From: Leifsonia sp. CL147
GTDB lineage: Bacteria; Actinomycetota; Actinomycetes; Actinomycetales; Microbacteriaceae
Assembly: GCF_900114565.1 (NCBI RefSeq)
Contig: NZ_FOTM01000018.1
Coordinates: forward strand, 1 to 64,000
Reading direction: 5' to 3'
Length of the DNA stretch: 64,000 bases
The notes under the pieces were generated by a model. The model made no database searches. It was given only the letters and a program-made list of their open reading frames with translations, and was not told where the DNA came from. Shown in pieces: positions 21,346 through 63,818 of this stretch (its first letter is position 1; each line of letters starts with the position of its first letter). The translations under genes were made by a program, and so were the position numbers.

Positions 21346-21413
21346 CACCGAGTCCGCAGAGATTGCACGCGACACGCCGCGCGCGCCGTCAGTCTCTGCG
21401 GACTCGACGGTGG
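21346..21413. repeat. Family A hairpin element, copy 1
   Basis: Inverted arms GAGTCCGCAGAGA (21350-21362) and TCTCTGCGGACTC (21393-21405) are exact complements, with further partial pairing on both sides. It fills the 96-bp gap between the convergent MFS and VOC genes. The centre shares GCACGCGACACGCCG with copy 2. Confidence 0.85.
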
Positions 21414-21419
21414 GGGCCC

Positions 21420-21788
21420 TCAGGGTGTGGGGCGGGTGAAGAGGTTGACGAGGTTGCCGTCGGGATCGCGGAAGAGCGTCGAGCGGTTGCCCCACGGCAT
21501 CGTCGTCGGCGGAAGCACCACGTCCTCCGGCTGGAGACGCGAGAACTCCGCATCCACGTCATCCACCTGGAACTCGACGATGACCGAGTCGTTCGACGCG
21601 GGACGCGGAGCAGCCTCGCCCAGCATGGCCACGGTCTCCACGGCACCGATCGCCAAGGTCCCTCCGCCCACCTCGAACTGTGCGAACACCGGCGCGGGTC
21701 GCACAGCGGGGACGCCGGTCAGCTCCTCGTAGAAGCGAGCGAGACGATCGACGTCTGCGGTGACGATGCGGATGGATGCGAACTGCAT
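21420..21788 (-). CDS. VOC-family (glyoxalase/bleomycin-resistance fold) protein
   Basis: A 122-residue single-domain vicinal-oxygen-chelate protein (IRIVTADVDRLARFYEELTG ... GNRSTLFRDPDGNLVNLFTRP). The fold hosts metal-dependent lyases, dioxygenases and drug-binding proteins, and the substrate here is unknown. The ATG at 21788 is preceded by CCAGGAGG, a near-perfect ribosome-binding site. The gene ends directly against a family A hairpin. Confidence 0.85.
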   Translation of the reverse strand: MQFASIRIVTADVDRLARFYEELTGVPAVRPAPVFAQFEVGGGTLAIGAVETVAMLGEAAPRPASNDSVIVEFQVDDVDAEFSRLQPEDVVLPPTTMPWGNRSTLFRDPDGNLVNLFTRPTP

Positions 21789-21871
21789 GGTGCCTCCTGG
21801 AGCGGCGGTGGACGGATGTCCGATCACCCTGCCAGCGACCTCTGACACTGCAGCGGTCCGCACCGGCGAGG

Positions 21872-22750
21872 TCAGGCGACGACGCGCACCGCGTTCGCCC
21901 AGGGGTCCTCGAAGGCCAACGTGCGCCCGTCGTCCTGCGTCTGCACGCCGAAATGCCGCATCCTCTCGCCCAATGCGCCGAGGTCGTCGGCCGAGGGCAC
22001 CCGGATCTCGACCTGACCGAGGCCGAGCGCAAGCCGCCGACGGCCGGCGCCTCGGCTGTTCCACGTGTTCATCGCCATGTGGTGGTGGTATCCGCCGGCA
22101 CTCACGAACAGCGCAGAACCGCCGAGCGCGGCCGTCGCTGCGAAGCCGAGGCGATCCACATAGAACGCGCGCGCCGTCTCCACGTCGCCCACCGACAGGT
22201 GCACATGGCCGACGGCTGCATCGCCGAATACCGGGAGCTCGTCGGTCCCGGGCTCGGCGAGGGCGGCACCGCGCTCGGTCAGGTGCTCGGAGAGGAAGGC
22301 GTTGGGGTCGAGGAACAGTGTCGCCATCTCGACCTGCCCGTGGGTCCAGCTCCAGAGGCTGCGGTCGCGATCCCAGTACAGCTCCACGCCGTTGCCCTCG
22401 GGATCGGTGAAGTAGAAGGCCGTGCTGACGAGGTGGTCCGCACTTCCGGTGAACGTGCCGGGCGCACGGCGAGCGACGGAGTACACGGCGGCGGCCAGCG
22501 CCTCCTGCGTGTCGAAGAGGATCGCCGTGTGGAACAGCCCCGCCTCGCCCGGACCCGCGTGCTTCAGCTCCGGCGCGTACTCCAGCACGACCGCCGGCGT
22601 TGTGCCGCGCCCGAGGATGACCCGGCCGCCCTCGGCCGCGAGCACCCGCAAGGTGACGGCGTCGCGGTAGTACGCCGTCATCCGGTCGAGATCGGCGACG
22701 CGCAGAGTGACCGCGCCCATGGTGGAGTCTGCGGGGAGGAGTTCGGGCAC
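21872..22750 (-). CDS. Two-domain VOC protein, CatE-like (catechol-2,3-dioxygenase family)
   Basis: The 292-residue product has two VOC modules. The first (about residues 11-125: GAVTLRVADLDRMTAYYRDA ... FYFTDPEGNGVELYWDRDR) is followed by a second (about 165-290: VGHVHLSVGDVETARAFYVD ... LAFEDPWANAVRVVA). Metal-ligand His and Glu positions fit extradiol-dioxygenase-type members such as Bacillus CatE. An SAGGYHHHMAMNTWNS stretch is typical of that group. The start is the GTG at 22750, with an ATG at residue 11 as the alternative. It is transcribed towards the smaller VOC gene. Confidence 0.82.
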   Translation of the reverse strand: MPELLPADSTMGAVTLRVADLDRMTAYYRDAVTLRVLAAEGGRVILGRGTTPAVVLEYAPELKHAGPGEAGLFHTAILFDTQEALAAAVYSVARRAPGTFTGSADHLVSTAFYFTDPEGNGVELYWDRDRSLWSWTHGQVEMATLFLDPNAFLSEHLTERGAALAEPGTDELPVFGDAAVGHVHLSVGDVETARAFYVDRLGFAATAALGGSALFVSAGGYHHHMAMNTWNSRGAGRRRLALGLGQVEIRVPSADDLGALGERMRHFGVQTQDDGRTLAFEDPWANAVRVVA

Positions 22751-22830
22751 ACCAGCATCAACCGCCGCGGCGTCGCCGTTATTTCACCGGTGAGGTCTGG
22801 ATCGGCCGCCGGCCGGCCTTACTCGCGGAC

Positions 22831-23733
22831 TCACTCCCCGGTGAGGCGCTCCAGCAGCTCGCGGTACCGGGCAGCCGTCCGAGCAACGATGTCCGCCGGC
22901 AGCTCGGGCGGCGTGCCCGCCCTGTCCCAGTTCGCGGCCAGCCAGTCGCGCACGATCTGCTTGTCGAAGCTGGCCATCCGCTCCTCGGGGGTCTCGCCCG
23001 CCGCGTACGCGGCGGCGTCCCAGTACCGGCTCGAGTCGCTGGTCAGCACCTCGTCGGCGAGCGTGATCTCGCCCGTGACCCGGTCGGCGCCGAACTCGAA
23101 CTTCGTGTCGGCGATGATGACCCCGCGAGCCTCGGCGATGGAGGCGCCGCGCCGGTAGACGTGCAGCGACAGCCGCCGCAGCTCCTCCGCCACGTCGGGG
23201 CCGACCAGCTCGATGGTGCGCTCGAAGCTGATGTTCTCGTCGTGCCGGCCGAGTGGAGCCTTCCAGGCAGGGGTGTAGATCGGCTCCGGCAGCCGGTCGC
23301 CGTTGCGCAGGCCCGACGGCAGCGGGATGCCGCAGACGCTCTGCGACTCCCGGTACTCCGCCCATCCACTGCCGGTCAGGTAGCCGCGCACGACGCATTC
23401 GATGGGGAACATGTCGAGCGGCTTCACCAGCATGGACCGGCCGGAGACCTCCTCCGGGATCCGCTCCACGACACGATCGCCGACGAGGGCGTGGTCCGGG
23501 ATGAGGTGGTTCGGCACATCGTCCAGCCGGTCGAACCACCACAGGCTCAGGGTCGTGAGCAGTTCGCCCTTCCCCGGGATGCCGGGCTCGAGCACGTGAT
23601 CGAAGGCGCTCACGCGGTCGCTGGCGACGACGAGCACGCTGTCCGTGTCGGCAAGACCGCTCGCGCCGGCCGGGACGAAGAGGTCCCGCACCTTCCCCGA
23701 ATACACGTGGACCCATCCCGGAAGTTCGCTCAC
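22831..23733 (-). CDS. purC: SAICAR synthase (PurC)
   Basis: A 300-residue phosphoribosylaminoimidazole-succinocarboxamide synthase, which adds aspartate to CAIR using ATP. The N-terminal ATP loop YSGKVRDLFVPA, the signature MFPIECVVRGYLTGSGWAEY and the ADTKFEFG motif are all present. The start is GTG at 23733, since the long upstream extension of the frame is Arg/Ser-rich noise. It reads in the same direction as purD (upstream) and purS-purQ-purL (downstream). Confidence 0.96.
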   Translation of the reverse strand: MSELPGWVHVYSGKVRDLFVPAGASGLADTDSVLVVASDRVSAFDHVLEPGIPGKGELLTTLSLWWFDRLDDVPNHLIPDHALVGDRVVERIPEEVSGRSMLVKPLDMFPIECVVRGYLTGSGWAEYRESQSVCGIPLPSGLRNGDRLPEPIYTPAWKAPLGRHDENISFERTIELVGPDVAEELRRLSLHVYRRGASIAEARGVIIADTKFEFGADRVTGEITLADEVLTSDSSRYWDAAAYAAGETPEERMASFDKQIVRDWLAANWDRAGTPPELPADIVARTAARYRELLERLTGE

Positions 23734-23764
23734 CCGTCCATCGTAGGGGGAGGCGTGCCGGCGG

Positions 23765-24118
23765 CTACGCGAGCAGTCGTGTCTTGGCCGCCGTGAACTC
23801 GGCCTCGGTGAGCACCCCCTGGGCGTGCAGGGTGGCGAGCTGCTGGAGCTGGGAGGTGAGGTCGTTCCCCGGGGATGCTGCGGGTGGCGCAGGAGCCGCC
23901 GCCTGCTGTGCCTGTTGCTGTGCCGCCGCCTGTTGCGCGGCCGCCGCTTGCTCCGCCTGTTGCTGCGCGGCCGCCTGTTGCTGCGCGTCCGCCTGCGCAT
24001 GCTCGTTCTGGCGGCGCTGCACGTTCCCGGACACCGCGGTCGCTGTGCCGGCGACGACCGCTGTGCCCGCGGCCATGCCGATCAGCCCGGGTCGTCCGCC
24101 TCGCCGGAACGGTGACAT
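23765..24118 (-). CDS. SHOCT-domain membrane protein with Gln/Ala-rich coil
   Basis: The 117-residue product has a short hydrophobic N-terminal segment (LIGMAAGTAVVAGTATAV), then a long Gln/Ala-rich helical stretch (residues about 35-80). It ends in a SHOCT motif (LTSQLQQLATLHAQGVLTEA, then EFTAAKTRLL). SHOCT modules are short oligomerisation or interaction motifs at protein C-termini. The gene starts 11 bp after the DUF6325 gene, so the two form a small operon. Function is unknown. Confidence 0.82.
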   Translation of the reverse strand: MSPFRRGGRPGLIGMAAGTAVVAGTATAVSGNVQRRQNEHAQADAQQQAAAQQQAEQAAAAQQAAAQQQAQQAAAPAPPAASPGNDLTSQLQQLATLHAQGVLTEAEFTAAKTRLLA

Positions 24119-24129
24119 GATCGTCCTCC

Positions 24130-24576
24130 TCAACTCTCGTCGGTGTCGAGCTCGTAGTACGCGTCCGCCACCACCGCGTTCACGACAGGAGCCGGGATGC
24201 GCTCGCTCAGCAGCACCATGCCGCCCGCCTCGAAGAAGCGGCTCGACAACTGTCTCGCCCAGACATGTTCGAGGACGAGGATGGCCCCGGCCGAGCCGGG
24301 ATCCAGGAACTCGGCGATCTGCTTCGCATCCTCCTCGGCGGCGAGACCCGAGGCCTCGACCGGAAGGTCGGCGAAGCCGAGGTCGTCGCCCAGCTCTGCC
24401 GGCTCGACGATCTCGACGCGCCCATCGTCGTGGCGCCGGACGATCACTAAGTCGAGCAGCCGGATCGTCCCCGTATCCAGCAGCTCGGCGATCGCCCGGA
24501 CCACGCCCTCCGACGGTCGGTCGCCGTCGAACCGGGCGAACAGGAACTCTGCCGGACCGTACTCGAACTCGGCCAT
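24130..24576 (-). CDS. DUF6325-family protein
   Basis: A 148-residue acidic soluble protein (MAEFEYGPAEFLFARFDGDR ... TIRLLDLVIVRR ... DLGFADLPVEASGLAAEEDA). Actinobacterial homologues with this layout are grouped as DUF6325 and usually lie next to SHOCT-domain genes, as here. The ATG at 24576 follows GGAAGGGG; the longer frame is not favoured. The role is unknown, and a stress or envelope function is only a guess from neighbourhood patterns. Confidence 0.75.
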   Translation of the reverse strand: MAEFEYGPAEFLFARFDGDRPSEGVVRAIAELLDTGTIRLLDLVIVRRHDDGRVEIVEPAELGDDLGFADLPVEASGLAAEEDAKQIAEFLDPGSAGAILVLEHVWARQLSSRFFEAGGMVLLSERIPAPVVNAVVADAYYELDTDES

Positions 24577-24759
24577 CACTGCCCCTTCCCGGCGGTCGCA
24601 TCCGATCGTCACGGGCACCATACTGCGCGGGTCGCCATCGGCGATATGCAGTAGCTCCAGACGGACGCGCCAGCGTGGATGTTCACGGTCACATTCCTAG
24701 AATGGAGGGTCGGCCGGCGCGGAGCGCCGCCGGGCGAGGACGGATCGAGGAGGACCGCG

Positions 24760-26004
24760 ATGGCTGAGATGAACTGGGCAGGCAATTACGAGTATCGAGC
24801 GGGGCGCATCGCGCGGCCGGAAACGGTCGAGGAGCTGCGCGAACTGGTCGTCGGTGCTCCGGCGGTCCGGGCGCTGGGCAGCAGGCACTCGTTCAACGAC
24901 CTGGCGGACACGCCGGGGCTGCTCGTCAGCACCGCGGGACTGCCCGGCACCGTCCGGATCGACGAGGCGTCGCGCACGGTCACGGTCGGAGGAGGCGTCC
25001 GCTACGGAGACCTCGCCCGCGAACTGCAGGAGGCGGGATGGGCGCTGCACAACCTCGCCTCACTCCCGCACATCTCGGTCGCCGGTGCGATCGCCACGGC
25101 CACCCACGGCTCGGGTGACCGCAATGGCAACCTGGCCACGGCGGTCGCCGGGTTGCGCATCCTGAACGGTTCCGGCGAGCTCGTGGACCTGCGCCGCGGC
25201 GACGAGGGGTTCGACGGCGCCGTCGTCGGACTCGGCGCGCTCGGCGTGGTGACCGAGGTGACCCTCGAGATCCGTCCGACGTTCGACGCGCGTCAGCGCT
25301 TGTTCGGCGGAGTGCCATGGGATGCGGTGCTCGGCCGGCTCGACGAGCTCACATCCGCCGCGTACAGCGTGAGCCTCTTCACGACCTGGGACGAGCCGTC
25401 GGTGTCCCTCGCCTGGCTCAAAGAGCTCGACGGAGCGGAATCCGCGATCGAGGACGACTTCTTCGGTGCGCCGGCTCTGACCGAGGCGCGGCACATGATC
25501 CCCACGATGGATGTGCGGAACACCACGGAACAGCTGGGTGTGGCCGGCCCGTGGAGTGAGCGGCTCGCGCACTTCCGGTTCGAGTTCACACCCTCCAACG
25601 GCGAGGAGATCCAGTCCGAGTACCTGGTGCCGAGGTCACGGGCCGTGGAGGCGATCGAGGCGGTCCGTGCGCTCGCGCCGCTGGTCGCGCCCCTGCTGCA
25701 GATCACCGAGATCCGCACGGTCGCCGCCGACGACCTCTGGCTGTCGAGCTCGTACGGGACCGACGTCGTCGGCCTCCACTTCACCTGGGTGCGCGACCAG
25801 GCCGGCGTGGAGGCGGTGCTCCCGCAGGTCGAGGCCGCGCTCCTCCCGCTCGGCGCGCGCCCGCACTGGGGCAAGCTGTACCTCGATCGCGAGGGCGTCG
25901 TCCCCTCGCTCTATCCGCGCCTCGCCGACTTCGCCGCTCTCGCCGCGCGCTTCGACCCCGACGGCCGGTTCCGCAACCCCTTCCTCGCCCGGCTCCTCCC
26001 CTAA
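24760..26004 (+). CDS. FAD-dependent alditol/sugar-lactone oxidase (AldO-like)
   Basis: A 414-residue vanillyl-alcohol-oxidase-fold protein. The FAD domain shows GSRHSFNDLADTPG, whose His is the covalent FAD site in alditol oxidase, then LASLPHISVAGAIATATHGSG. The C-terminal D-arabinono-lactone-oxidase domain ends RPHWGKLYLDREGV ... FDPDGRFRNPFL. Such enzymes oxidise xylitol or sorbitol to aldoses and release hydrogen peroxide. It starts at ATG 24760 behind CGAGGAGG. It is convergent with purD across a family A hairpin. Confidence 0.9.
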   Translation: MAEMNWAGNYEYRAGRIARPETVEELRELVVGAPAVRALGSRHSFNDLADTPGLLVSTAGLPGTVRIDEASRTVTVGGGVRYGDLARELQEAGWALHNLASLPHISVAGAIATATHGSGDRNGNLATAVAGLRILNGSGELVDLRRGDEGFDGAVVGLGALGVVTEVTLEIRPTFDARQRLFGGVPWDAVLGRLDELTSAAYSVSLFTTWDEPSVSLAWLKELDGAESAIEDDFFGAPALTEARHMIPTMDVRNTTEQLGVAGPWSERLAHFRFEFTPSNGEEIQSEYLVPRSRAVEAIEAVRALAPLVAPLLQITEIRTVAADDLWLSSSYGTDVVGLHFTWVRDQAGVEAVLPQVEAALLPLGARPHWGKLYLDREGVVPSLYPRLADFAALAARFDPDGRFRNPFLARLLP

Positions 26005-26014
26005 GAACTTTCGT

Positions 26015-26088
26015 CCCTCCATCGAGTACACGAAGACTGCACGCGACACGCCGCTGAAGCGTGCAGTCTTCGTGTACTCGATGGAGGG
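26015..26088. repeat. Family A hairpin element, copy 2 (29-bp perfect arms)
   Basis: Positions 26015-26043 and 26060-26088 are exact inverted repeats of 29 bp around a 16-base centre. The arm core is GAGTACACGAAGACTGCACG. It occupies nearly all of the space between the convergent oxidase and purD genes. There is no T-tract, so it is not a standard rho-independent terminator. Confidence 0.95.
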
Positions 26089-26093
26089 GAGGG

Positions 26094-27350
26094 CTAGGAG
26101 ACCCGGGCGGCGATGTCGGTGCGGTAGTGGGCGCCCTCGAGGTGGATGTGTGCGAGGGCTTCGTAGGCGCGTGAGCGCGCCTCGGCGAAGCCGGTGCCGC
26201 GAGCGACCACGGAGAGGACGCGTCCGCCGGTCGCCAGGAGGGCGCCCGTCGCATCGTCGCGCGCGGTCGCGGCGTGCGCTATGGTCACCTCCGGTACGGC
26301 GGCGGCCTCCTCGAGGCCCGTGATCGCCCGGCCCGTCTGCGGAGCCTCGGGATAGCCCTCGCTCGCCAGGACGACGGTCACCGCGGTGTCCAGTGCGAAC
26401 TCGGGACGCGGCAGCCGCCCGAGCCCGCCCGTCGATGCTGCGAACAGCAGCGTGGACAGGGGCGTGACGAGCCGGGGGAGCACGACCTGCGTCTCCGGGT
26501 CGCCGAATCGGGCGTTGAACTCGATCACGCGGATGCCCCGCTCGGTCAGGATCAGTCCGCAGTAGAGCAGCCCGATGAACGGCGTCTGCTCGCGGGCCAT
26601 CGTGCGCACCGTCGGGAGGGCGATCGTCTCGATGACCTCGTCCACGAAACCGTCCGGCAGCCACGGCAGCGGCGAGTAGGCGCCCATCCCGCCGGTGTTC
26701 GGTCCCGCATCCCCGTCGAGGAGCCGCTTGTAGTCCTGCGCCGGCGACAACGGGAGCACGTCGTGGCCGTCGCTGAAGAGGAACAGCGACACCTCCTGGC
26801 CGTCGAGGAACTCCTCGACGAGCACCCCGCCGTGACGCAGCCAGTGCGTGGCGTGCTCGACCGCCGCGTCGCGGTCCTCGGTCACCAGTACGCCTTTGCC
26901 TGCCGCGAGACCATCCGCCTTCACGACGTACGGCGCTCCGAAGTCGTCCAGCGCCTCCTCCGCCTCGGCGAGCGTCTCGGCGCGGACGGCCCGCCCGGTC
27001 GGGACGCCGGCCGCATCCATGATGCGCTTCGCGAAGGCTTTCGATCCCTCGAGCTGGGCGGCGGCCTTGCCCGGCCCGAACACCGGGATGCCGCGTGTCC
27101 GCAGAGGATCGGCGACGCCGGCGACGAGCGGCGCTTCCGGTCCGATCACGACCAGCTCGATGCCGTTCTCGATCGCGTACTCGGTGACGGCGACACCGTC
27201 GAGCGGATCGAGGGTCGCATCCACCCGCACCTCCTGGGCGATGCCGGCGTTGCCGGGGGCGGCGACGATGTCGTGGCCGGCCTCCTCGGCGAGCAGCGCG
27301 GTGATGATGGCGTGCTCACGGGCACCGGAACCGAGGACGAGAATCTTCAC
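26094..27350 (-). CDS. purD: Phosphoribosylamine-glycine ligase (PurD)
   Basis: A 418-residue ATP-grasp enzyme that joins phosphoribosylamine and glycine in step 2 of purine synthesis. It begins MKILVLGSGAREHAIITALL and has the ATP-grasp loop APYVVKADGLAAGKGVLV, the signature RFGDPETQVVLPRL and the metal-binding VIEFNARFGD. It is the first of the leftward purine genes (purD-purC-purS-purQ-purL). Confidence 0.97.
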   Translation of the reverse strand: MKILVLGSGAREHAIITALLAEEAGHDIVAAPGNAGIAQEVRVDATLDPLDGVAVTEYAIENGIELVVIGPEAPLVAGVADPLRTRGIPVFGPGKAAAQLEGSKAFAKRIMDAAGVPTGRAVRAETLAEAEEALDDFGAPYVVKADGLAAGKGVLVTEDRDAAVEHATHWLRHGGVLVEEFLDGQEVSLFLFSDGHDVLPLSPAQDYKRLLDGDAGPNTGGMGAYSPLPWLPDGFVDEVIETIALPTVRTMAREQTPFIGLLYCGLILTERGIRVIEFNARFGDPETQVVLPRLVTPLSTLLFAASTGGLGRLPRPEFALDTAVTVVLASEGYPEAPQTGRAITGLEEAAAVPEVTIAHAATARDDATGALLATGGRVLSVVARGTGFAEARSRAYEALAHIHLEGAHYRTDIAARVS

Positions 27351-27428
27351 GCCACCATGCTAGAGGGAGGGGATGCGCGGCTCCGGCCGCAGGGCGCCTC
27401 CGGCCGGCCCGGTGGCAGGATGGGACGC

Positions 27429-30199: not shown

Positions 30200-31318
30200 G
30201 TGACCGACTCCAGCGCCTCCTCGTCCGCCTCCTACGCCGCAGCCGGCGTCGACACCGCGGCCGGCGACCGGGCCGTCGAACTCATGAAGGCGGCCGTCGG
30301 GCGCACGCACGGTCCTGAGGTGCTGGGCGGCGTGGGCGGCTTCGCCGGCCTGTTCGACGTATCGGTCCTGAAGGACTTCCGCCATCCGCTGCTCGCGACC
30401 TCCACCGACGGCGTCGGCACCAAGGTCGCCATCGCGCAGGCGCTCGACAAGCACGACACGATCGGTCAGGACCTGGTCGGGATGGTCGTCGACGACATCG
30501 TCGTGGTGGGCGCCCGGCCGCTGTTCATGACCGACTACATCGCGTGCGGCCGGGTCGTCCCCGAGCGCATCGCCGCGATCGTCGAGGGAATCGCCCGGGC
30601 CTGCGCCCAGACCGGCACGGCGCTCGTCGGCGGCGAGACGGCGGAGCATCCCGGCCTCCTCGGTCCCGACGACTACGACGTCGCCGGCGCTGCGGTCGGA
30701 GCGGTCGAAGCGGATGCGGTGCTCGGCGCCGACCGCGTCCGCGACGGGGATGTGGTGCTCGCCCTCGCGTCCTCCGGCCTGCACTCCAACGGCTTCTCGC
30801 TGGTGCGCCACATCCTCGCGGCGCGCGGCGTGGGATTCACCGACCACTCGGCCGAGTTCGGCGGCGTGGTCGGGGAGGCGCTGCTCGAGCCGACCCGGCT
30901 CTACACGGCACCGCTGCTGCGCGTGCTCCAGGATGCCTCCCTCGGCGGCGCCATCCACTCGCTCAGCCATGTCACGGGTGGCGGGATCGCCGCGAACCTC
31001 GCCCGCGTCCTCCCCGTCGGGTCCTGGGTGGAGGTCGAGCGCTCGACCTGGACGCCGACGCCGGTGTTCCGCATCCTGAGCGACCTCGCCGGAAGCTCAC
31101 TGGAGTCGGCGGAAGGCACCTGGAACCTCGGCATCGGGATGTTCGCGGTCGTGTCGCCCGAGGCGGCGGACGCGGTGGCCGCCGCGATCACGGCCGACGG
31201 CATCCCGACCTGGCGCGCCGGGACCGTCTCGACGGCGCCCCGCGACCTGACCGGCTTCGAGCAGGGCGCGAAGGGCGTCGACGGAGGCGCCGTCCGTCTC
31301 ACCGGCGCCTACGCCTGA
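30200..31318 (+). CDS. purM: Phosphoribosylformylglycinamidine cyclo-ligase (PurM)
   Basis: A 372-residue AIR synthase (FGAM plus ATP to AIR). Motifs are ATSTDGVGTKVAIAQ, VGMVVDDIVVVGARPLFMTDYIA, GGETAEHPGLL and HVTGGGIAANLARVLP. The GTG at 30200 lies about 8 bp after TACGAT (30187-30192), so in addition to read-through from purF a leaderless transcript is possible. The gene ends just before a family A hairpin. Confidence 0.97.
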   Translation: MTDSSASSSASYAAAGVDTAAGDRAVELMKAAVGRTHGPEVLGGVGGFAGLFDVSVLKDFRHPLLATSTDGVGTKVAIAQALDKHDTIGQDLVGMVVDDIVVVGARPLFMTDYIACGRVVPERIAAIVEGIARACAQTGTALVGGETAEHPGLLGPDDYDVAGAAVGAVEADAVLGADRVRDGDVVLALASSGLHSNGFSLVRHILAARGVGFTDHSAEFGGVVGEALLEPTRLYTAPLLRVLQDASLGGAIHSLSHVTGGGIAANLARVLPVGSWVEVERSTWTPTPVFRILSDLAGSSLESAEGTWNLGIGMFAVVSPEAADAVAAAITADGIPTWRAGTVSTAPRDLTGFEQGAKGVDGGAVRLTGAYA

Positions 31319-31338
31319 CCCGCACCTCCCCCTCCCCT

Positions 31339-31422
31339 CACGCCCCACCGTCGAGTCCGCACAGATTGCACGCGCAGCGCCGCTGCGACGTGCAATCTGT
31401 GCGGACTCGACGGTGGGGCGTG
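31339..31422. repeat. Family A hairpin element, copy 3 (34-bp perfect arms)
   Basis: Positions 31339-31372 and 31389-31422 are exact inverted repeats of 34 bp, with core GAGTCCGCACAGATTGCACG. The 16-base centre is itself the palindrome CGCAGCG-C-CGCTGCG plus one A, so the whole 84 bp is almost one palindrome. This copy lies between two rightward genes (purM and an ABC ATPase). Confidence 0.95.
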
Positions 31423-31491
31423 ACAAATGTCATGGACGGATGCTGACAGGCGCACTGGGGCGCGGTGCGGGGTTCGGGCACGCTGAGAGGC

Positions 31492-32418
31492 GTGAATGAA
31501 CCCGCCATCCGCCTCACCGGCCTGCGCAAGAGCTTCGGCGCGCTCACGGCCGTCGACGGCGTCGACCTCAGCATCCGCCCGGGCGAAGTCGTCGCCCTTC
31601 TCGGCCCGAACGGAGCCGGCAAATCGACCACCATCGACCTGGCGCTGGGCCTCGCCCGGCCGACGGCAGGAAGCGCAGAGCTCTTCGGCGCAGCGCCACG
31701 CGTCGCGATCCGTGAGGGCCGGGTGGGGGCGATGCTGCAGGGCGGCGCGCTGCTCCCGACACTCACCGTCGCGGAGTCCGTCGCCCTCGTCGCCGCAGCC
31801 CACCGCAACCCGCTGACCGTGACGGAGGCGCTCGAGCGCGCCCGCTGCACCGAGATCGCGCGGCAGCGGGTCTCCAAGCTCTCCGGCGGCCAGCTGCAGC
31901 GCGCCCGGTTCGCGGTGGCCGTCGTCTCCGACCCCGACCTCCTCTTCCTCGACGAGCCCACCGCCGCGATGGATGTGGAGGCGCGGCGCACCTTCTGGCG
32001 CTCCATGCGCGAGTTCACGGAGGCGGGCCGCACCGTCGTCTTCGCCACCCACTACCTGGACGAGGCGGACGAGCACGCGGACCGCATCGTCATGATGGCG
32101 CGGGGCCGAATCGTCGCCGACGGGACGCCCGCCGAGGTGAAGGCCGTCGTCTCCGGCCGCCGCATCCGCGCCACCGCCCGGTTCGCGGCGACCCCCGAGA
32201 GCCAGGCCGCTCTCGCCGCCCTTCCGGGCGTCCGCACGGCCGACCGGCGCGGAGACCGGGTGACGCTCGTGAGCGACGACTCCGACGCCACGCTGCGCGC
32301 CCTCCTCGCCGAGCACGACATCCACGACCTCCACGACATCGAAGTGACAGTGCACACCATGGACGAGGCGTTCCTCGCCCTCACCGAGACACGCGCCACC
32401 GAAGGAGCCCTCTCATGA
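31492..32418 (+). CDS. ABC-2-type transporter ATP-binding protein
   Basis: A 308-residue ATPase with Walker A GPNGAGKST, signature LSGGQLQRARFA, Walker B LLFLDEPTAAMD and switch ATHYLDEADE, followed by the C-terminal domain common in DrrA/CcmA-like exporters. The GTG at 31492 was chosen. The stop overlaps the permease start (ATGA). With the two-component system just downstream it forms a set resembling antibiotic- or envelope-stress-responsive exporters such as LiaRS- or DesRK-linked pumps. Confidence 0.92.
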   Translation: MNEPAIRLTGLRKSFGALTAVDGVDLSIRPGEVVALLGPNGAGKSTTIDLALGLARPTAGSAELFGAAPRVAIREGRVGAMLQGGALLPTLTVAESVALVAAAHRNPLTVTEALERARCTEIARQRVSKLSGGQLQRARFAVAVVSDPDLLFLDEPTAAMDVEARRTFWRSMREFTEAGRTVVFATHYLDEADEHADRIVMMARGRIVADGTPAEVKAVVSGRRIRATARFAATPESQAALAALPGVRTADRRGDRVTLVSDDSDATLRALLAEHDIHDLHDIEVTVHTMDEAFLALTETRATEGALS

Positions 32419-36468: not shown

Positions 36469-36516
36469 CGACGAGCGGGCACGGAGCGCGTTCGAGCTTC
36501 GGTGGGCCGCGGGGAC

Positions 36517-36699
36517 CGTCGGATCGGTGCGGCCGTCGGATCGGTGCCGCCGTCGGATCAGTCCCGCCGTCGGATCGGTGCGGCCGTCGGATCAGGCCGG
36601 CCGTCGGATCGGTGGGGCCGTCGGATCAGGCGCTCACGTCGGATCAGGCGGTCACGTCGGATCAGGCGCTCACGTCGGATCAGGCGGTCACGTCGCGTG
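36517..36699 (+). repeat. 17/18-bp tandem repeat spanning a stop codon (ten copies plus a partial)
   Basis: CGTCGGATC starts at 36517, 36534, 36551, 36568, 36585, 36602, 36619, 36637, 36655 and 36673, with a degenerate eleventh at 36691. The first six spacings are 17 bp and the last four 18 bp. The array fills the gap between two convergent genes, and its last full unit contains the stop codon (36680-36682) of the debranching-type enzyme. Confidence 0.93.
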
Positions 36700-52467: not shown

Positions 52468-52683
52468 ACATTCGTGACGAATGTCGCGTTCTCGGGCCGG
52501 GGAGTGCACATTCGTGACGAATGTCGCGTTCTCGCGCCGCGGAGTGCACATTCGTGACGAATGTCGCGTGCAACGCCGCGGAGTGCACATTCGTCACGAA
52601 TGTTGAGGTGCAACGCCGCAGCCTGCGCATTCGTGACGAATGTCGGGTTCTCGCGCCGCGGAGTGCACATTCGTGACGAATCT
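52468..52683. repeat. Family B palindrome array 2 (six copies, 40-bp period)
   Basis: The palindrome ACATTCGT-S-ACGAATGT starts at 52468, 52508, 52548, 52587, 52627 and 52667, spaced 40, 40, 39, 40 and 40 bp. The last two copies have one mismatch each at an end. The 23-bp spacers (CGCGTTCTCGCGCCGCGGAG, then TGC) differ from those of array 1, while the core and period are the same. Confidence 0.95.
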
Positions 52684-52769: not shown

Positions 52770-53531
52770 ATGGACTGGTCCATCCAGGACATCGCACGGA
52801 TCGCCGGTACCACCAGCCGCACGCTGCGCCACTACGACGCGATCGGGCTGCTGAAGCCCAGCCGCGTCGGCGGCAACGGCTACCGGTACTACGACCGCGA
52901 CTCGCTCGTGCGGCTGCAGCGCATCCTGCTGCTCAGGGAGCTCGGTCTCGGCCTCGATGCCGTCGGCCGCGTGCTCGACGACCGGATGGATGCGGTGCCC
53001 GCCCTGCGCGACCACCTCGAGTGGCTCCGCGCGGAGCGGAAACGGCTGGCGCGGCAGATCGCGTCGGTCGAGTCGACGATCCACGCGGTGGAGGAAGGAG
53101 AAGAGATCGTGGCCGAGCAGATGTTCGACGGATTCGATCACACGCAGTACAAGGACGAGGTCGAGGAGCGCTGGGGGAAGGAGGCCTACGCGGCCTCCGA
53201 TCGCTGGTGGCGCAGCAAGAGCCCGGAGGAGCGTGCCGAGTGGCAGTCCCGCCAGGAGCGGCTGGCCGCCGACTGGCAGGCCGCCGCGGCGAGCGGCGTC
53301 TCACCCGACTCGGAGGAGGCCCAGGAGCTGGCGGGCCGTCACGCCGAGTGGCTGGCGGGCATCCCGGGGACCCCGGGCTACGGCACCGGCGCTCCCGCTG
53401 CCGCGTACCTCACGGGACTCGGCGACATGTACGTCGCCGACGACCGCTTCGCGGCCAACTACGGCGGAACCACCGGGGCCACCTTCGTCCGGGACGCCCT
53501 CCGCCACTACGCCGCGACGCACCTCGCCTAA
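52770..53531 (+). CDS. MerR-family regulator with TipAS drug-binding domain
   Basis: The 253-residue product has an N-terminal MerR domain (WSIQDIARIAGTTSRTLRHY ... GYRYYDRDSLVRLQRILLLR), a coiled coil (about residues 75-115) and a C-terminal TipAS domain (FDGFDHTQYKDEVEERWGKE ... YVADDRFAANYGGTTGATFV). TipA proteins bind thiopeptide and other antibiotics covalently and activate transcription. It is preceded by a 19-bp-spaced promoter with a perfect operator. No efflux gene is adjacent in the same direction. Confidence 0.94.
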   Translation: MDWSIQDIARIAGTTSRTLRHYDAIGLLKPSRVGGNGYRYYDRDSLVRLQRILLLRELGLGLDAVGRVLDDRMDAVPALRDHLEWLRAERKRLARQIASVESTIHAVEEGEEIVAEQMFDGFDHTQYKDEVEERWGKEAYAASDRWWRSKSPEERAEWQSRQERLAADWQAAAASGVSPDSEEAQELAGRHAEWLAGIPGTPGYGTGAPAAAYLTGLGDMYVADDRFAANYGGTTGATFVRDALRHYAATHLA

Positions 53532-53544: not shown

Positions 53545-53621
53545 GCCCCACCATCGAGTACGCAGAGACTTGCGCTTTTGGTCGCCAAAACGTGCAGTCT
53601 CTGCGTACTCGATGGTGGGGC
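53545..53621. repeat. Family A hairpin element, copy 4 (26-bp perfect arms)
   Basis: Positions 53545-53570 and 53596-53621 are exact 26-bp inverted repeats (core GAGTACGCAGAGACT). A second inner hairpin CTTTTGG-TCG-CCAAAAC follows. It lies between the convergent tipA-like and yczE-like genes. Confidence 0.95.
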
Positions 53622-53663: not shown

Positions 53664-54554
53664 TTAGGGGTGACGCGGGCGGCGCGCGAGGCGGTCGTCC
53701 AGCCAGTGGGCGGCCACGAGGCGGGACGGACGGGCCGGCGCGGCAGGGTTCGGAGCGGGAGCGGCGCGGTCGGGCTGCGGGGCGCGGACGAAGGGGGAGT
53801 CGGCGCGGGCGTCGCGAGCCCGGGCGGCCCGGTCGGACTCGAGCAGGATGCCGTCGCGCACGTCGAAACGGACGGCATCCCGCTCGTCCTCGAGGCCGGC
53901 CGACTGCTCGGCCGTTCCCTCGAGCTCGCGCTCCAGCGCCGCCGCAGGCGTGGCAGCGTCCTGCGGCAGGCGGATCGCGAAGAACGGGAGGGTGATGCTG
54001 CACAGCGGCCCGACCAGCAGCGCGAACGCGAGCGTCCCGACGCCGACGTTCCCGCCCAGGACCCACCCGATGATCAGGGCGGTCACCTCGATGGCGGTTC
54101 GCACCATCCAGATCGGCCGGCCGGTGCGGGCGTGCAGACCCGTCATCAGGCCGTCGCGCGGCCCCGGCCCCATCCGCGGACCGATGTAGAGGCCGGTCGC
54201 GACGGCGAGCAGGGCGAGCCCGCCCGCGAAGAACAGCACCTGCGCCCACAGCTCGGTCTGCTGCGGCAGCAGGTCGAGACCCAGCTGTGCGCTGGGGCCG
54301 ATCAGCAGCACGTTCAGGATGGTGCCGAGCCCGGGCCGCTGACGCAGCGGGATCCAGAACGCGAGCACCACGAGCCCGACGAGGTTGGTGACCCATCCGA
54401 ACGCGATGCCGGTCTTGAACGACAGACCCTGGGACAGCACGTCCCACGGTGACAGCCCGATGCCGGCTCGCACCATCAGCGCGATGGCGATCCCGTAGAG
54501 GAACAGGCCGATGAGCAGCTGGATGAGGCGGCGGGTGAGGAGGCGGGCGGTCAT
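53664..54554 (-). CDS. yczE: YczE-type membrane protein
   Basis: A 296-residue integral membrane protein with five or six helices (LIQLLIGLFLYGIAIALMVRA and GIGLSPWDVLSQGLSFKTGI, then GWVTNLVGLVVLAFWIPLRQ ... GPRMGPGPRDGLMTGL). This is the YczE/YitT-like pattern. The C-terminal 90 residues are charged and rich in Asp, Arg and Ala, longer than the family norm. It is divergent from a MocR-type regulator, as in the known YczR/YczE pairs. The transported substrate is unknown. Confidence 0.87.
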   Translation of the reverse strand: MTARLLTRRLIQLLIGLFLYGIAIALMVRAGIGLSPWDVLSQGLSFKTGIAFGWVTNLVGLVVLAFWIPLRQRPGLGTILNVLLIGPSAQLGLDLLPQQTELWAQVLFFAGGLALLAVATGLYIGPRMGPGPRDGLMTGLHARTGRPIWMVRTAIEVTALIIGWVLGGNVGVGTLAFALLVGPLCSITLPFFAIRLPQDAATPAAALERELEGTAEQSAGLEDERDAVRFDVRDGILLESDRAARARDARADSPFVRAPQPDRAAPAPNPAAPARPSRLVAAHWLDDRLARRPRHP

Positions 54555-54561
54555 GGACATA

Positions 54562-59200: not shown

Positions 59201-59797
59201 GTCGGCATCGTCGTGACCAACGCGATCGTGCTCATCGACCTCGTGAACCAGTACCGCAGGCGCGGGCTCAGCGTCGCGGATGCGGTGGCGCACGGCGCCT
59301 CCCGGCGTGTGCGTCCCATCCTGATGACGGCGCTGGCCACCATCGCGGCGCTGACGCCCATGGCGATCGGTGTGACCGGTCATGGTGGTTTCATCTCCCA
59401 GCCCCTCGCCATCGTCGTGATCGGCGGACTCATCTCCTCGACCGTGCTGACGCTCATCGTGCTGCCGACGCTGTACAACCTCGTGGAGGGGCGGCGCGAG
59501 CGCCGCGCAGCACGCAAGGCGGCGAAGGCCGCTTCCCGTGCCGGGCGGGCGGCGGACGGGGGTGCCGGGCCTTCCGGCGGCGGCCCGCGTGGCGGAGGTG
59601 GGGGCCCGGAGCGGCCGTCCGGCGGGGCCGGCGGGGCCGGGCGGGCCGGCGGGGCCGGCGAGGCCGAGGGCTCCGGCGGGGCCGGCGGGGCCGGCGGGGC
59701 AGGGGACTCCGGCGGCTCCGGAAACGGGACGCGCCGCTCGCCGGACGCCCCGGAGCCGCCCGTGTTCACGCAGCCGGTCGGTGGCACGCAGATCTGA
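56288..59797 (+). CDS. RND-family efflux transporter (AcrB/HAE1-like, SwrC type)
   Basis: A 1169-residue proton-driven pump with 12 membrane helices and two large extracytoplasmic loops. It has the family hallmarks GALTIAIGRVVDDSIVVIEN (TM4 Asp pair), FPQLVVLTSYPGASPEVVNH near the N-terminus and LMLVGIVVTNAIVLIDLVNQ in TM10. Such HAE1-type pumps occur singly in Gram-positive bacteria (for example SwrC of Bacillus). Two low-complexity inserts are unusual: a (GAGA)n run at about residues 249-275 in the first loop, and a Gly-rich tail of about 85 residues. Start GTG 56288 follows CTGGGGG. Confidence 0.92.
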   Translation: MHLLAVLSMKNRALIALITIVAAVFGGLALSNLKQELIPSISFPQLVVLTSYPGASPEVVNHDVSTPVEAAIQGVPDLDSTSAVSSTNQSIITAKFTYGTDLATAEQKIDQAINRISSTLPAGVQPQVLSGSIDDLPVIQLAVTGGGDQRALGNDITKLVLPDIKDLNGVNDAKLIGEVGRRITITPDPAKLAAAGMSSSAIKDALQQNGVLIPGGDITESGSTLSIQSGTQLSSVGDIAALPLIRSAGAGAGEGAGAGAGADAGAGAGAGGSAANGGAAGRGQTAAAPAATPPTPRTIGDVATVAETDDPITSLSRVDGKPALTIAVTKLPSANTVEVSHAVNALIPDLEKKLGGDATVTVVFDQAPFISQSIDSLTEEGMLGLAMAVVVILVFLLSIRSTIVTAISIPTSVLITFVVMWGTGYTLNIITLGALTIAIGRVVDDSIVVIENIKRQLVPGADRGVTIVRAVREVAGAITASTITTVAVFLPLAFVGDTTGELFRPFALTVTIALLSSLLVALTIVPVLAYWFLRAPKPRTNENEGVEAAHLSIEEATASGVDELEHPSRLQAGYLPIIRWTVKHSWVTIIAAVIVLGLTFAVSPAVKTNFLGSSGQNSLTVTQTLAPGASLQAKDDAARVVEQKVRDTKGVKTVQVSIGSSGSSLRDAFTGGSGGTTFSITTDPDADQAKLQSTIQDELAAITGQGTITLSASSGFGPSSNIQVDITASNDADLQKATDAVVGQLKDKASLTQVADNLSASLPYVAVSVDRAKAAAAGLSEVAVGSIVSQAMQPTQEGTVAIDNTTLKIYLQTANPPTTVAGLAQLPIPTAAGVVPLDTLASVEQVDGPSSVTTQRGVRTASVTATPATDNLSTANADVSAGLKAAKLPVGASAKIGGVSSSQSDAFSQLGLALLAAILIVYIVMVATFRSLRQPLLLLVSVPFAATGAILLQLASGIPLGVASLIGLLMLVGIVVTNAIVLIDLVNQYRRRGLSVADAVAHGASRRVRPILMTALATIAALTPMAIGVTGHGGFISQPLAIVVIGGLISSTVLTLIVLPTLYNLVEGRRERRAARKAAKAASRAGRAADGGAGPSGGGPRGGGGGPERPSGGAGGAGRAGGAGEAEGSGGAGGAGGAGDSGGSGNGTRRSPDAPEPPVFTQPVGGTQI

Positions 59798-59872
59798 GCC
59801 GGTCCGGGATCCCAGACGGCTCGTCGTGTGGCCGAGCCCGCGCGGCCTCCGCGGCTCGCTAGGGTCGCGGGT

Positions 59873-60769
59873 ATGAGCGCACAGGTCCTCTCCGCCGATC
59901 CGCTGTGGCCCCGGGCAGGAGGCTGGCCCGCGCTGGGCCGGGACGGCGCCGATCTGACGTTGATCGGCATCCCGACGCATGAGACATCGCTGTCGCCGAC
60001 GGGCGCCCGCGCCACCCCGGCTGCGGTCCGGGATGCGCTGCGGCGGTACTCGACGCACGCCGCGGGACTCGACGTGGAGGGCCTGCGCTTCGCGGACGCG
60101 GGCGACGTCGCATCGCCCGACGGACCGGAAGGCCGCGAACGGGCGCGTGCGGCGATGGCCGCCGCGGTCTCCGCATCCCGGCTGACCGTGGCCGTCGGCG
60201 GCGATAACTCGCTGACCGTGCCGGCGGCGCTCGGCGCAGCAGGGGATGCGTTGCGGACGGCCGGGCTGATCACCCTCGACGCGCATCACGACCTGAGGGA
60301 CGGAACGTCGAACGGATCGCCCGTCCGTGAACTGCTGGAGGCGGGGCTCGACGGGAGACGGATCGTCCAGATCGGGATCGCCGACTTCGCGAACTCGGCC
60401 GCCTACAGCCGCCGAGCGGCCGAGCGCGGCATCACCGTCATCCCGCGCGACGCACTGCACGTCCGGCCGCTGGACGACGTGATGGCGGAGGCCCTGGAGA
60501 TCGCGGGCGCGGCGGGCGGTCCCATCCATGTCGACCTGGACGTCGACGTGTGCGACCGATCGGTCGCGCCCGGCTGCCCGGCCTCCGTTCCCGGCGGCCT
60601 CGCCGCGTGGGAACTACGCCGACTGGCCCGCCTGGCCGCCGCATCCCCGCGCGTGCGCTCCGTCGACATCGCCGAGGTCGACGCGACCGCCGACACCCCC
60701 GATCAGCGTACGGTCCGCCTCGCCGCCCTCCTCGTCCTCGAGTCCGCCGCGGGCCTCGCCTCCCGCTGA
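59873..60769 (+). CDS. hutG: Formimidoylglutamase (HutG), arginase family
   Basis: A 298-residue Mn-dependent ureohydrolase that releases formamide and glutamate from formimidoylglutamate in the last step of histidine breakdown. Metal motifs are GGDNSL, LDAHHDLRDG and VDLDVDVCD. The context with hutI, hutU and hutH decides between HutG and agmatinase. TAGGGT about 8 bp before the ATG suggests a leaderless promoter. It converges with hutI across a family A hairpin. Confidence 0.88.
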   Translation: MSAQVLSADPLWPRAGGWPALGRDGADLTLIGIPTHETSLSPTGARATPAAVRDALRRYSTHAAGLDVEGLRFADAGDVASPDGPEGRERARAAMAAAVSASRLTVAVGGDNSLTVPAALGAAGDALRTAGLITLDAHHDLRDGTSNGSPVRELLEAGLDGRRIVQIGIADFANSAAYSRRAAERGITVIPRDALHVRPLDDVMAEALEIAGAAGGPIHVDLDVDVCDRSVAPGCPASVPGGLAAWELRRLARLAAASPRVRSVDIAEVDATADTPDQRTVRLAALLVLESAAGLASR

Positions 60770-60794
60770 CCCCGCCCCGCCCCCGCGCCCCACC

Positions 60795-60870
60795 CCCCAC
60801 CATCGAGTACACGAAGACTGCACGCAAAACGCGGTTTAGCCGTGCAATCTTTGCGGACTCGATGGTGGGG
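60795..60870. repeat. Family A hairpin element, copy 5 (hybrid arms)
   Basis: Arms 60795-60824 and 60841-60870 pair along 30 bp with about five mismatches. The left arm carries the ACACGAAGACTGCACG version seen in copy 2. The right arm carries the CCGCAAAGATTGCACG version seen in copies 1 and 3. The element lies between convergent hutG and hutI. Confidence 0.9.
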
Positions 60871-60895
60871 CGCGGGGCGGGGGCGGGGTGCGGCG

Positions 60896-62059
60896 TCAGG
60901 CGGAGGCGCGGAGGGTGCGCGCGACGAGGGGGACGCCGGGGCGGTACGCGAGGTGGATGTGGCTGGGCGCGGCGAGCACGGCGAGGTCGGCCCGTGCGCC
61001 GGGCCGGAGGTGCCCGACGTCGTCGCGGCGCAGGGCGGCCGCTCCGCCGAGGGTCGCGGCTCGCAGCGCCTCGCCCGGCGTCAGTCCCATGTCCCGCACC
61101 GCCAGCGCGATGCAGAACGGCATCGACGAGGTGAACGACGACCCGGGGTTGCAGTCGCTCGCCAGCGCGATCGCGGCCCCCGCATCCAGCAGTCGCCGGC
61201 CGGAGGGGTAGGGATGCCGCGTCGAGAACTCCACGCCGGGCAGCAACGTCGCAACGGTCCGGGATGCCGCCAAGAGCTCCACGTCGTCGTCGCTCAGGTA
61301 GGTGCAATGGTCGACGCTCGCAGCATCCAGTTCCACGGCGAGGGCCACGCCGTCCCCGGGACCGAGCTGTGCAGCATGCAGCCGCACACCCAAACCCCGG
61401 GCAGCGCCAGCGGCGAGGATGCGCCGCGACTGCTCCACGGTGAAAGCGCCGCTCTCGCAGAACGCGTCGATCCACCGGGCGTGCGGCGCGCACGCCTCGA
61501 GCATCGGGCCCATGACCAGCTCGACGTACGCCTCCGGATCCTCCACGTACTCCGCGGGGACCACATGCGCGCCGAGGAATGTGGTCTCGCCGGTCACCTC
61601 GCGAGCGAGGCGGAGCAGCCGCTCCTCGTCGGCGATGCTCAGGCCGTAGCCGCTCTTGACCTCGAACGTCGTCGTGCCCTGGGCGTGGAGTTCGGCGACC
61701 AGGCGAGCCAGCCGACGCCGCAGTTCCTGGTCCGTGGCGGTCCGCGTCGCTGCGACCGTCGACCGTATGCCGCCTGCCGCATACGGCCGTCCGGCCATCC
61801 GCGCCTCGAACTCGCCGGCCCGGTCGCCACCGAACACGAGGTGGGTGTGCGAGTCGACGAATCCGGGGATGACGGCGGCGCCGGCCACCTCGATGACCTC
61901 GTCCGCGTCGGAGAGCGGGGCGGCGGATGCGGACCCCGTCCAGACGACCCGTCCCTCCACCGAGAGCACTGCGGCGTCGTGCACGATGCCGAGCGGCCCG
62001 GGATGAGCGGGATCGAAAGTGACGAGCTCGCCGATCCCGGTGACCAGCGTCGCGGTCAT
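60896..62059 (-). CDS. hutI: Imidazolonepropionase (HutI)
   Basis: A 387-residue amidohydrolase that opens imidazolonepropionate to formimidoylglutamate. The metal motif [20 protein letters not shown], the signature [10 protein letters not shown], the [24 protein letters not shown] segment and the Asp motif [16 protein letters not shown] are all present. The ATG at 62059 overlaps the hutU stop (ATGA). Confidence 0.96.
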
Positions 62060-63726
62060 CGGCGTGCGGCTGCCTGCTCGCGCATCGGGATGCGCAACCC
62101 GCGCTCCTGCGCGACCTCGGCCGCCCGCTCGTAGCCGGCATCCACGTGGCGCATCACGCCCGTCCCCGGGTCGTTGACCAGAACGCGCTCGATCTTCTCG
62201 GCGGCCAGGGCCGTTCCGTCCGCGACGACGACCTGACCCGCGTGGATGCTGCGCCCGATCCCGACGCCGCCGCCATGGTGAAGCGACACCCAGGTCGCGC
62301 CGGATGCGGTGTTCAGGAGCGCGTTGAGCAGCGGCCAGTCCGCGATCGCATCCGAGCCGTCGGCCATCGACTCCGTCTCGCGGTAGGGCGAGGCGACCGA
62401 TCCCGAGTCGAGGTGATCGCGGCCGATCACGATGGGCGCGGAGAGCTCGCCCGAGGCGACCATCTCGTTGAAGCGCACGCCCGCGAGGTGCCGCTCCTTG
62501 TATCCCAGCCAGCAGATCCGCGCGGGAAGCCCCTCGAAGTGCACCTTCTCGCCGGCCTGCGTGATCCACCGGCGCAGGTGCTCGTCCTCGGGGAAGAGCT
62601 CGAGCACCGCACGGTCGGTCGCTGCGATGTCGGCGGGATCACCGGACAGTGCGACCCAGCGGAAGGGCCCCTTGCCTTCCGCGAAGAGCGGGCGGATGTA
62701 GGCGGGGACGAATCCGGGGAAGTCGAAGGCGCGGTCGTAGCCGCCGAGCTGCGCCTCCGTGCGGATGGAGTTGCCGTAGTCGAACACCTCGGCCCCCGCG
62801 TCCTGGAAGCCGACCATGGCCTCCACCTGCGCGGCCATGGAGCGGCGGGCGTCGTCGGTGAAGCGCTCCGGGTCGGCGGCGGCGCGCTCGCGCCACTCGG
62901 CGACCGCGTAACCCACCGGGAGGTAGCTGAGCGGGTCGTGGGCGCTGGTCTGGTCGGTCACGATGTCGATCGGGACGCCGCGGCGCAGGAGCTCGGGAAA
63001 GACCTCCGCCGCGTTGCCGACCACGCCGACGGAGAGCGCGCGGCGCTGTTCCTTCGCGGCCAGCGCCCGGTCGACGGCGTCATCGAGGTCGTGCGCGAGG
63101 ACGTCGAGGTAGCCGTGGTCGAGCCGGCGCTGCAGCCGGCCGGCGTCCACATCCACGATGAGGACCGCGCCGCCGTTGAGGGTGACGGCGAGCGGCTGCG
63201 CTCCGCCCATCCCGCCGCAGCCTCCGGTGAGGGTCAGGGTGCCGGCGAGCGAGCCGCCGAACCGTTTGCGGGCGACAGCGCCGAACGTCTCGTACGTCCC
63301 CTGCAGGATGCCCTGCGAGCCGATGTAGATCCAGGAGCCGGCGGTCATCTGGCCGTACATCGTGAGGCCCAGGGCCTCCAGCCGCCGGAACTCGGGCCAC
63401 GTCGCCCAGTCGCCGACGAGGTTGGAGTTGGCGATGAGCACCCGGGGCGCCCACTCGTGCGTGCGGAACACGCCGACGGGCTTGCCGGACTGCACCAGCA
63501 GCGTCTCGTCCGCCTCCAAATCGCGGAGCGTCGCCACGATCGCGTCGTAGGCCTCCCAGCTGCGGGCCGCGCGTCCCGTCCCTCCGTAGACGACGAGGTC
63601 GTCGGGCCGCTCGGCGACCTCGGGGTCGAGGTTGTTCATGAGCATCCGCAGCGGCGCCTCGGTCTGCCAGCTCTTCGCGCTGAGTTCCGTGCCGCGTGCC
63701 GCGCGAACGGGTCGTGCTCCGTCCAT
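62056..63726 (-). CDS. hutU: Urocanate hydratase (HutU)
   Basis: A 556-residue NAD-dependent enzyme that hydrates urocanate. Conserved blocks include [76 protein letters not shown] and [20 protein letters not shown]. It is translated before hutI. It lies 98 bp from the partial hutH, with a hairpin in the gap. Confidence 0.97.
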
Positions 63727-63744
63727 GGTTCTCGTTCCTTTCGT

Positions 63745-63818
63745 ACCCCCGTCGAGTACACGAAGACTTGCGTTTTTCGGGGGCTTTTCGTGCAGTCTTT
63801 GCGGACTCGATGGTGGGG
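63745..63818. repeat. Family A hairpin element, copy 6 (hybrid arms)
   Basis: The left arm (63745-63771) has the ACACGAAGACTTGCG version and the right arm (63788-63818) the CCGCAAAGACTGCACG version. The centre is AT/GC-biased (TTTTTCGGGGGCTTTT). It sits between hutU and hutH, both leftward. Confidence 0.88.

Follow-up and report, generated by a model that had tools for sequence, protein, structure and literature searches.

What kind of system places large, nearly perfect hairpins at the ends of bacterial genes? The question is raised by six such hairpins in a 64-kb window of the Leifsonia sp. CL147 genome (positions 1 to 64,000 of contig NZ_FOTM01000018.1; the window is this whole stretch), which are dispersed members of a palindrome family of about 78 bp, hereafter family A. 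Judging from sequence comparisons, we consider it probable that these dispersed hairpins belong to a system similar to that of repetitive extragenic palindromic (REP) elements and REP-associated tyrosine transposases (RAYTs), with an unrelated nuclease instead of the transposase. Predicted nuclease genes lying between alike palindromes are common in the Microbacteriaceae and present in other families of the order. These putative nucleases mostly tend to have a private palindrome family, which generally goes with the nuclease rather than with the species, the two being exchanged jointly between species. Comparison of genomes shows the palindromes dispersed mainly at gene 3' ends and swapped in place. 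From these patterns we infer that the nuclease would spread the palindromes.

Predicted nuclease genes between palindromes

The family-A nuclease gene is located outside the window, at G000:C28:269410-270294 (L129:7408-8295; G000 is the CL147 genome itself, and other G numbers denote further genomes). It has a low codon score and encodes a 295-aa protein whose N-terminus is AbiEi-like and whose nuclease domain is of the Vsr/MTES_1575 type. Of the two palindromes beside it, at 7365-7421 and 8352-8409 of L129, one is good and the other is degenerate, with 5 mismatches. The match of this protein to Pfam MTES_1575 has an E value of 0.012, which is under the Pfam cut-off, while among 36 homologues, 34 matched MTES_1575, 14 DUF559 and two AbiEi_4 at an E value of 0.01, and PADLOC AbiEi models matched up to 21 of the 36. 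The MTES_1575 domain is termed Vsr restriction endonuclease (REase) in PMC3710099. Residues E194, D228, E239, H245 and D255 are invariant in the 36 nucleases and resemble an active site; other invariant residues include S191, R198, Y240, G242, R246 and R258. Profile matches to PDB entries were weak (3hrl, E value 0.023; 3r3p, 0.26; VapB26, 0.42). Of 28 Leifsonia genomes, 27 have a homologue, as do 102 of the 150 Microbacteriaceae genomes examined (62 of 85 genera); in a sample of the whole order, Microbacteriaceae included, 162 of 198 genomes do. The window and L060-L075 contain none.

A gene was scored as bracketed if a hairpin upstream and a hairpin at its stop codon had an arm similarity of at least 12. 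This pair test was passed by 24 of 42 Leifsonia nuclease loci (30 homologue loci and 12 chosen paralogues from G000, G010, G022 and G024), versus none of 587 control genes of at least 600 nt from eleven Leifsonia regions, namely the window and ten regions of 80 kb. Fifteen of 27 loci from other Microbacteriaceae (27 genomes, 22 genera) passed as well, as did 13 of 30 loci in the order-level sample, comprising 6 of 12 in Microbacteriaceae (the CL147 locus being counted here once more) and 7 of 18 from the remaining families. The 3' palindrome frequently overlaps the nuclease stop codon.

The bracketing family differs between genomes at one and the same place. At the proC locus, brackets are of family A in G000, G009 and G010 (in G010 on the 5' side only), family B in G016, G020 and G022, family C in G006 and G013, and family D in G014, with further families elsewhere; in several genomes, such as G005, G018, G001 and G002, no bracket was found at this locus. 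Nuclease paralogues elsewhere in the genomes carry other palindromes. A perfect TGTGGATAA/TTATCCACA box is present within 350 nt upstream in 24 of 69 nuclease loci (L204-L280), 23 of them in one orientation, and in none of the 587 control genes; in other genera just 3 of 27 loci have it. This box resembles a DnaA box and might instead be a promoter element.

Joint exchange of palindrome and nuclease

Pairwise comparisons point to replacement of the nuclease together with its palindrome. Between G010 and G022 or G020, flanks are 91-94% identical and nucleases 52-54%, with family A beside the former and family B around the latter; along the G010-G022 alignment, identity is 0.94 up to the 5' palindrome, where it drops to 0.40, and it returns to 0.94 about 110 nt past the stop codon. 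Between G010 and G000, both with family A, the corresponding values are 85-88% for the flanks and 78% for the nuclease. G024 and G016 share 95% identity upstream and 61% in the nuclease, the G016 contig stopping downstream. Over 53 loci, nuclease identity correlated with arm similarity (r = 0.48), the largest value in 2000 permutations being 0.13.

The in-place swap of the proC-locus cassette, with its sharp borders, is also what a homing-type element would produce. Such a free-standing palindrome-nuclease-palindrome cassette would cut alleles or palindromes lacking its own sequence, and repair would copy in either the cassette or the palindrome alone, so that solo palindromes would be repair products or relics of lost cassettes. 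A Vsr-like nuclease with a residue pattern resembling EDxHD, the in-place swapping of dispersed palindromes described below, and the reported binding of nearly 60 bp by the dimeric EDxHD enzyme I-Bth0305I (PMC3943268) all agree with this explanation. We nevertheless regard it as unlikely: the genome has about 80 solo copies for a single family-A cassette, the match to PDB 3r3p is weak (E value 0.26), and the dispersed sites lack long flanking homology apart from C-rich and G-rich flanks.

Forward and reverse arms of family B number 28 and 25 in G010, 68 and 69 in G016, 64 and 61 in G020, 44 and 45 in G022, and 38 and 36 in G024, with 0 or 1 arms in the remaining 23 Leifsonia genomes; of the five genomes, out of 28, in which the family abounds, three possess a nuclease bracketed by B. 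In G027, which has no nuclease match at an E value of 1e-8, a single ordinary-looking hairpin was present in 80 kb, as expected if the nuclease spreads the palindromes.

Palindromes at gene ends and their exchange in place

In the eleven Leifsonia regions, 58 strong hairpins of any sequence were found: convergent junctions (95 in all) account for 36, tandem ones (305) for 17 and divergent ones (143) for 1, the others being 2 at region edges and 2 intragenic. When the two intragenic ones were excluded, 41 of the remaining 56 matched some Leifsonia nuclease-side palindrome, 27 of them one from the same genome, compared with 5 of 56 for shuffled arms (best of five shuffles each). The library of nuclease-side palindromes comprised 54 sequences from 33 loci and covered a subset of the paralogues. 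Unmatched hairpins include a terminator-like type and family E.

Junctions of three of the window hairpins (copies 2, 4 and 5, numbered along the window and located in the last section) were compared between G000 and ten relatives. Family labels, here and in the sister comparison below, were assigned by rough patterns, and two were reassigned by eye (one hairpin of G019 to C-type and one of G014 to D-like, the pattern having said A). The copy 2 junction carries family A in G000, G009, G010 and G022, family B (CAGCTCCTGAGTTYTTCG) in G020, G024 and G016, family D in G012 and a D-like palindrome in G014, and is devoid of a palindrome in G019 and G026. At the copy 4 junction, family A occupies G000, G009 and G010, family B occupies G020, G024, G016 and G022, and family D occupies G014; no palindrome is present in G019 and G012, and G026 was not comparable. 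The copy 5 junction has family A in seven genomes and family B in G020, none being called in G019, G012 and G014. At the copy 3 junction, at least 1.4 kb of extra sequence separates the flanking genes in relatives wherever both are present. Palindrome positions thus persist while the family at a position changes. The sister genomes G020 and G022, whose proteins have a median identity of 97.5%, show the same: among 130 shared junctions, three convergent ones have family B in G020 and family A in G022, consistent with an in-place swap, four have the same A or B palindrome and 13 the same unlabelled kind. The leftovers, one A-versus-unlabelled junction and five unlabelled one-sided ones, were not interpreted, some being threshold effects on near-equal sequences.

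Retention of a palindrome while its family changes would also be anticipated if palindromes were selected as terminators or 3'-end stabilisers, the nuclease merely borrowing them as operator and terminator and gene conversion keeping them homogeneous. The strong bias towards 3' ends and convergent junctions agrees with this possibility, as does the binding of promoter inverted repeats by AbiEi proteins (PMC7319586). We consider it quite improbable, since T-tracts are absent, arm sequence is conserved beyond pairing (7 of 21 positions invariant over 80 copies), families are private to genomes and nucleases, and relatives have empty junctions. A conserved structure of another kind was seen at junction (15,16) of G010, G019, G020, G022 and G024, where a hairpin of the GGAGGTCGCAGCC type, terminator-like and bordered by runs of A and T, retains its sequence across species, unlike the palindromes.

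Several observations weigh against a nuclease-driven spread. The pair test was failed by 18 of 42 Leifsonia loci, including the proC-locus genes of CL147, which has a degenerate palindrome on the 3' side, and of G010, where the 5' palindrome alone was seen; moreover, the control genes are all from Leifsonia, also for the figures from other genera and families. The correlation between nuclease and arms is partly due to shared ancestry. Family A is abundant in G022, G020, G024 and G016, whose proC-locus nuclease is of a non-A type, and family B is abundant in G010 and G024, yet no B-bracketed nuclease was found there (4 of 4 and 4 of 5 loci examined, respectively); former residence of a nuclease would account for such families without a cognate enzyme. 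G003 has a nuclease match, yet only one hairpin in 80 kb. No clean gain of an A or B palindrome was present among the 130 G020/G022 junctions, nor was a target-site duplication seen, such as a miniature inverted-repeat element (MITE) of a DDE transposon would leave at an empty site. Finally, the CGACACGCCG loop motif, carried by 18 of 54 loops from Leifsonia brackets versus 1 of 33 from other genera, is not a universal mark.

Sequence and distribution of family A

The family-A core is GCCCCACCRT-CGAGTMCRCRNAGAYTGCACG-N15/16, after which comes the reverse complement. The 21-nt arm, when up to 3 mismatches were allowed, matched the genome 91 times forward and 97 times reverse, compared with 11 and 14 for a reversed control. 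A covariance-model search of the genome, of the kind that the initial annotation had suggested but with a model built from 22 copies, returned at least 150 matches, most elements appearing on both strands. Copies are numerous here and in relatives and strongly favour 3' ends and convergent gene pairs. Copies were counted in stretches that cover 10.9% of the genome and were picked around listed copies; one of 81 pattern matches (L137; 9 mismatches, intragenic) was excluded. Of the 80 family-A copies, 44 lie at convergent, 30 at tandem and 3 at divergent junctions, 2 were called intragenic, and 1 is at a locus edge.

Matches to the covariance model were obtained in 25 of 28 Leifsonia genomes, at 0 to at least 150 per genome, and in 12 of 249 genomes of a Microbacteriaceae sample, the eight non-Leifsonia ones being weak (E values 3e-8 to 2e-4). 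In a public genome collection, 16 stretches contained the strict two-arm pattern, all in two Leifsonia genomes; a search of viral contigs for the arm pattern gave none.

Variation among the 80 copies is concentrated at arm positions 6, 8, 10, 11 and 15, and 42 copies carry a CGACACGCCG-like loop motif, compared with a mean of 3.6 upon shuffling. The flanks are C-rich on the left and G-rich on the right over at least 40 nt; consequently, each convergent mRNA would carry a C-rich stretch ahead of the hairpin, possibly of relevance to Rho. Palindromy extends past the core in a locus-specific manner by a mean of 1.59 bp versus 0.88 bp in shuffled data (at most 1.24 in 300 shuffles); this excess stems from 11 of the 80 copies with 4-12 perfect bp each, including copy 5 of the window (60766-60899). 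Family-A palindromes also form arrays in the CL147 genome, with four copies at L145:9635-10002 and three at L133:2119-2436, spaced by about 93-130 bp.

The proposal that base changes in one arm are compensated in the other was borne out in part. At the five variable positions, the arms agree in 273 of 400 cells versus 194 ± 13 with right arms shuffled (0 of 2000 shuffles as high), and in the alignment of 22 sequences 92.2% of cells are paired versus 89.5% after shuffling; however, the same haplotype is present on both arms in just 23 of 80 elements. Arm changes therefore keep pairing above the shuffled level, not always, and copies are plentiful, so that the family idea survives on both counts. 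As proof of a selected RNA, arm compensation was rejected, the excess being only partial.

Proposed mechanism and relation to known systems

Taking into account the domain composition of the nuclease, the following scheme could be proposed for its spreading of the palindromes. The AbiEi-like part would bind the palindrome arms, a role suggested by the binding of inverted repeats by AbiEi proteins (PMC7319586), and the Vsr-like part may nick or cut the palindrome or another gene-end hairpin; the reported dimer site of I-Bth0305I fits the palindrome in size (PMC3943268). Repair would then copy the cognate palindrome into the cut site, at times in place of one that belongs to a different family. 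Copies located after stop codons may persist as they would be harmless there, and might act as 3' ends or bidirectional terminators. The initial annotation had envisaged an unknown structure-binding protein, which is a pointer in the right direction: such palindromes do bracket Vsr-like nuclease genes, whose products may be such proteins.

In REP-RAYT (TnpA-REP) systems, the driver gene has a palindrome on either side, changes rapidly and apparently coevolves with them (Nunvar et al. 2010, PMC2817692). The Leifsonia system is similar in its many extragenic copies mainly at 3' ends, in the driver-analogue gene between two palindromes and in the apparent coevolution, and it matches only in part the dependence of family abundance on the driver (PMC2817692). 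It differs in the longer palindromes (about 60-78 bp, with a loop of about 16 nt) and in the candidate driver, a Vsr-like PD-(D/E)XK protein with an AbiEi-like part, no Y1/HUH protein having been found. The suggestion of a mobile REP-like family related to bacterial interspersed mosaic elements (BIMEs) thus holds for the dispersed copies and the 3'-end and convergent bias, but the palindromes are not REP/BIME in the strict sense, no Y1 transposase having been found. Movement of a classical REP/BIME by a RAYT or another Y1 transposase would explain the shared habit, with extragenic 3'-end palindromes and a gene between two copies; however, Y1_Tnp (PF01797) was found neither in the CL147 genome nor in any of the 28 Leifsonia genomes, versus 5 of 14 control genomes matching, and we give this explanation hardly any credence. 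On the same evidence, a RAYT or IS200 element was rejected as the driver. Because the defining Y1 protein was not found, the system is not assigned to REP-RAYT.

To our knowledge, RAYTs are the sole known driver of REP-type repeats (PMC2817692), and the literature searches brought up no other. A kind defined by habit alone would include the Leifsonia palindromes among REP systems; we set them apart as a new kind because their putative driver is not homologous to a RAYT. One could tentatively hypothesise a second, independently evolved REP-like system, extending across Microbacteriaceae and part of the order, in which bracketed AbiEi-Vsr fusions have private palindrome dialects that are spread to gene ends and overwrite the palindromes of rivals in place.

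Similarities to other elements are likewise incomplete. REPs tagged with GTAG/CGTC are also located downstream of coding regions, mostly between convergent or unidirectional open reading frames, and differ in core, size and candidate driver (PMC3733652); a search of that text for Actinobacteria, Leifsonia or Clavibacter gave no hit. With EDxHD homing endonucleases such as I-Bth0305I the nuclease shares a likely Vsr-like fold, a set of E, D, E, H and D that never varies and in-place replacement (PMC3943268), while differing in the dispersed palindromes, the AbiEi-like N-terminus, the weak profile match (E value 0.26) and the absence of any visible intron or intein. The N-terminal similarity links it to the AbiEi antitoxins, known to bind inverted repeats (PMC7319586); unlike them, it has this part fused to a nuclease domain. 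Among the titles and abstract openings that searches of open-access literature listed, none links palindromic repeats to this nuclease.

If the proposed system is real, gene-end palindromes would have arisen more than once, through different chemistry, and an abundant actinobacterial protein family lacking a specific name in the libraries scanned would acquire a role. It would also offer many natural enzyme-palindrome pairs for deciphering a recognition code, and it makes testable why related species bear different palindromes at the same gene ends.

Hairpins and other features of the window

All six hairpins of the initial annotation were recovered at the positions given there. With genes called independently by a purpose-built codon-usage model, four proved to be at convergent and two at tandem junctions, with none inside a gene, in agreement with the earlier description. 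Copy 1 (21340..21415), with imperfect arms, lies between the genes 19566-21323(+) and 21420-21788(-), and copy 2 (26014..26089) between 24760-26004(+) and 26094-27350(-). Copy 3 (31338..31423) is in a tandem arrangement, 3' of 30200-31318(+) and 5' of 31492-32418(+). The convergent genes around copy 4 (53545..53621) are 52770-53531(+) and 53664-54560(-), and those around copy 5 (60795..60870), the arms of which represent two differing haplotypes, are 59873-60769(+) and 60896-62059(-); imperfect palindromy of copy 5 reaches out to 60754-60911. Copy 6 (63744..63818), with mismatched arms, lies among tandem minus-strand genes, directly 3' of the gene 63825-63998. Perfect arms had been given as 29, 34 and 26 bp for copies 2, 3 and 4 and measured 30, 35 and 26 bp, while copies 1, 5 and 6 contain mismatches. 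As reported earlier, T-tracts are lacking: in none of the six copies does a TTTT run follow either arm within 30 nt, whichever strand is read, so the T-run of an intrinsic terminator after the stem is absent from all. The strict two-arm pattern has 3 matches in the window versus 0 in 100 shuffles.

A palindrome of another family, with ACATTCGTGACGAATGT arms, is located at 52548..52603 and matches the palindrome adjoining a paralogous nuclease gene of CL147 (L236, G000:C15:202289-203041). The window yielded no tRNA genes and no Rfam matches at the gathering score. An array of short direct repeats (GCCGTCGGATCRG type) at 36469-36679 occupies the whole of a 211-nt convergent junction.

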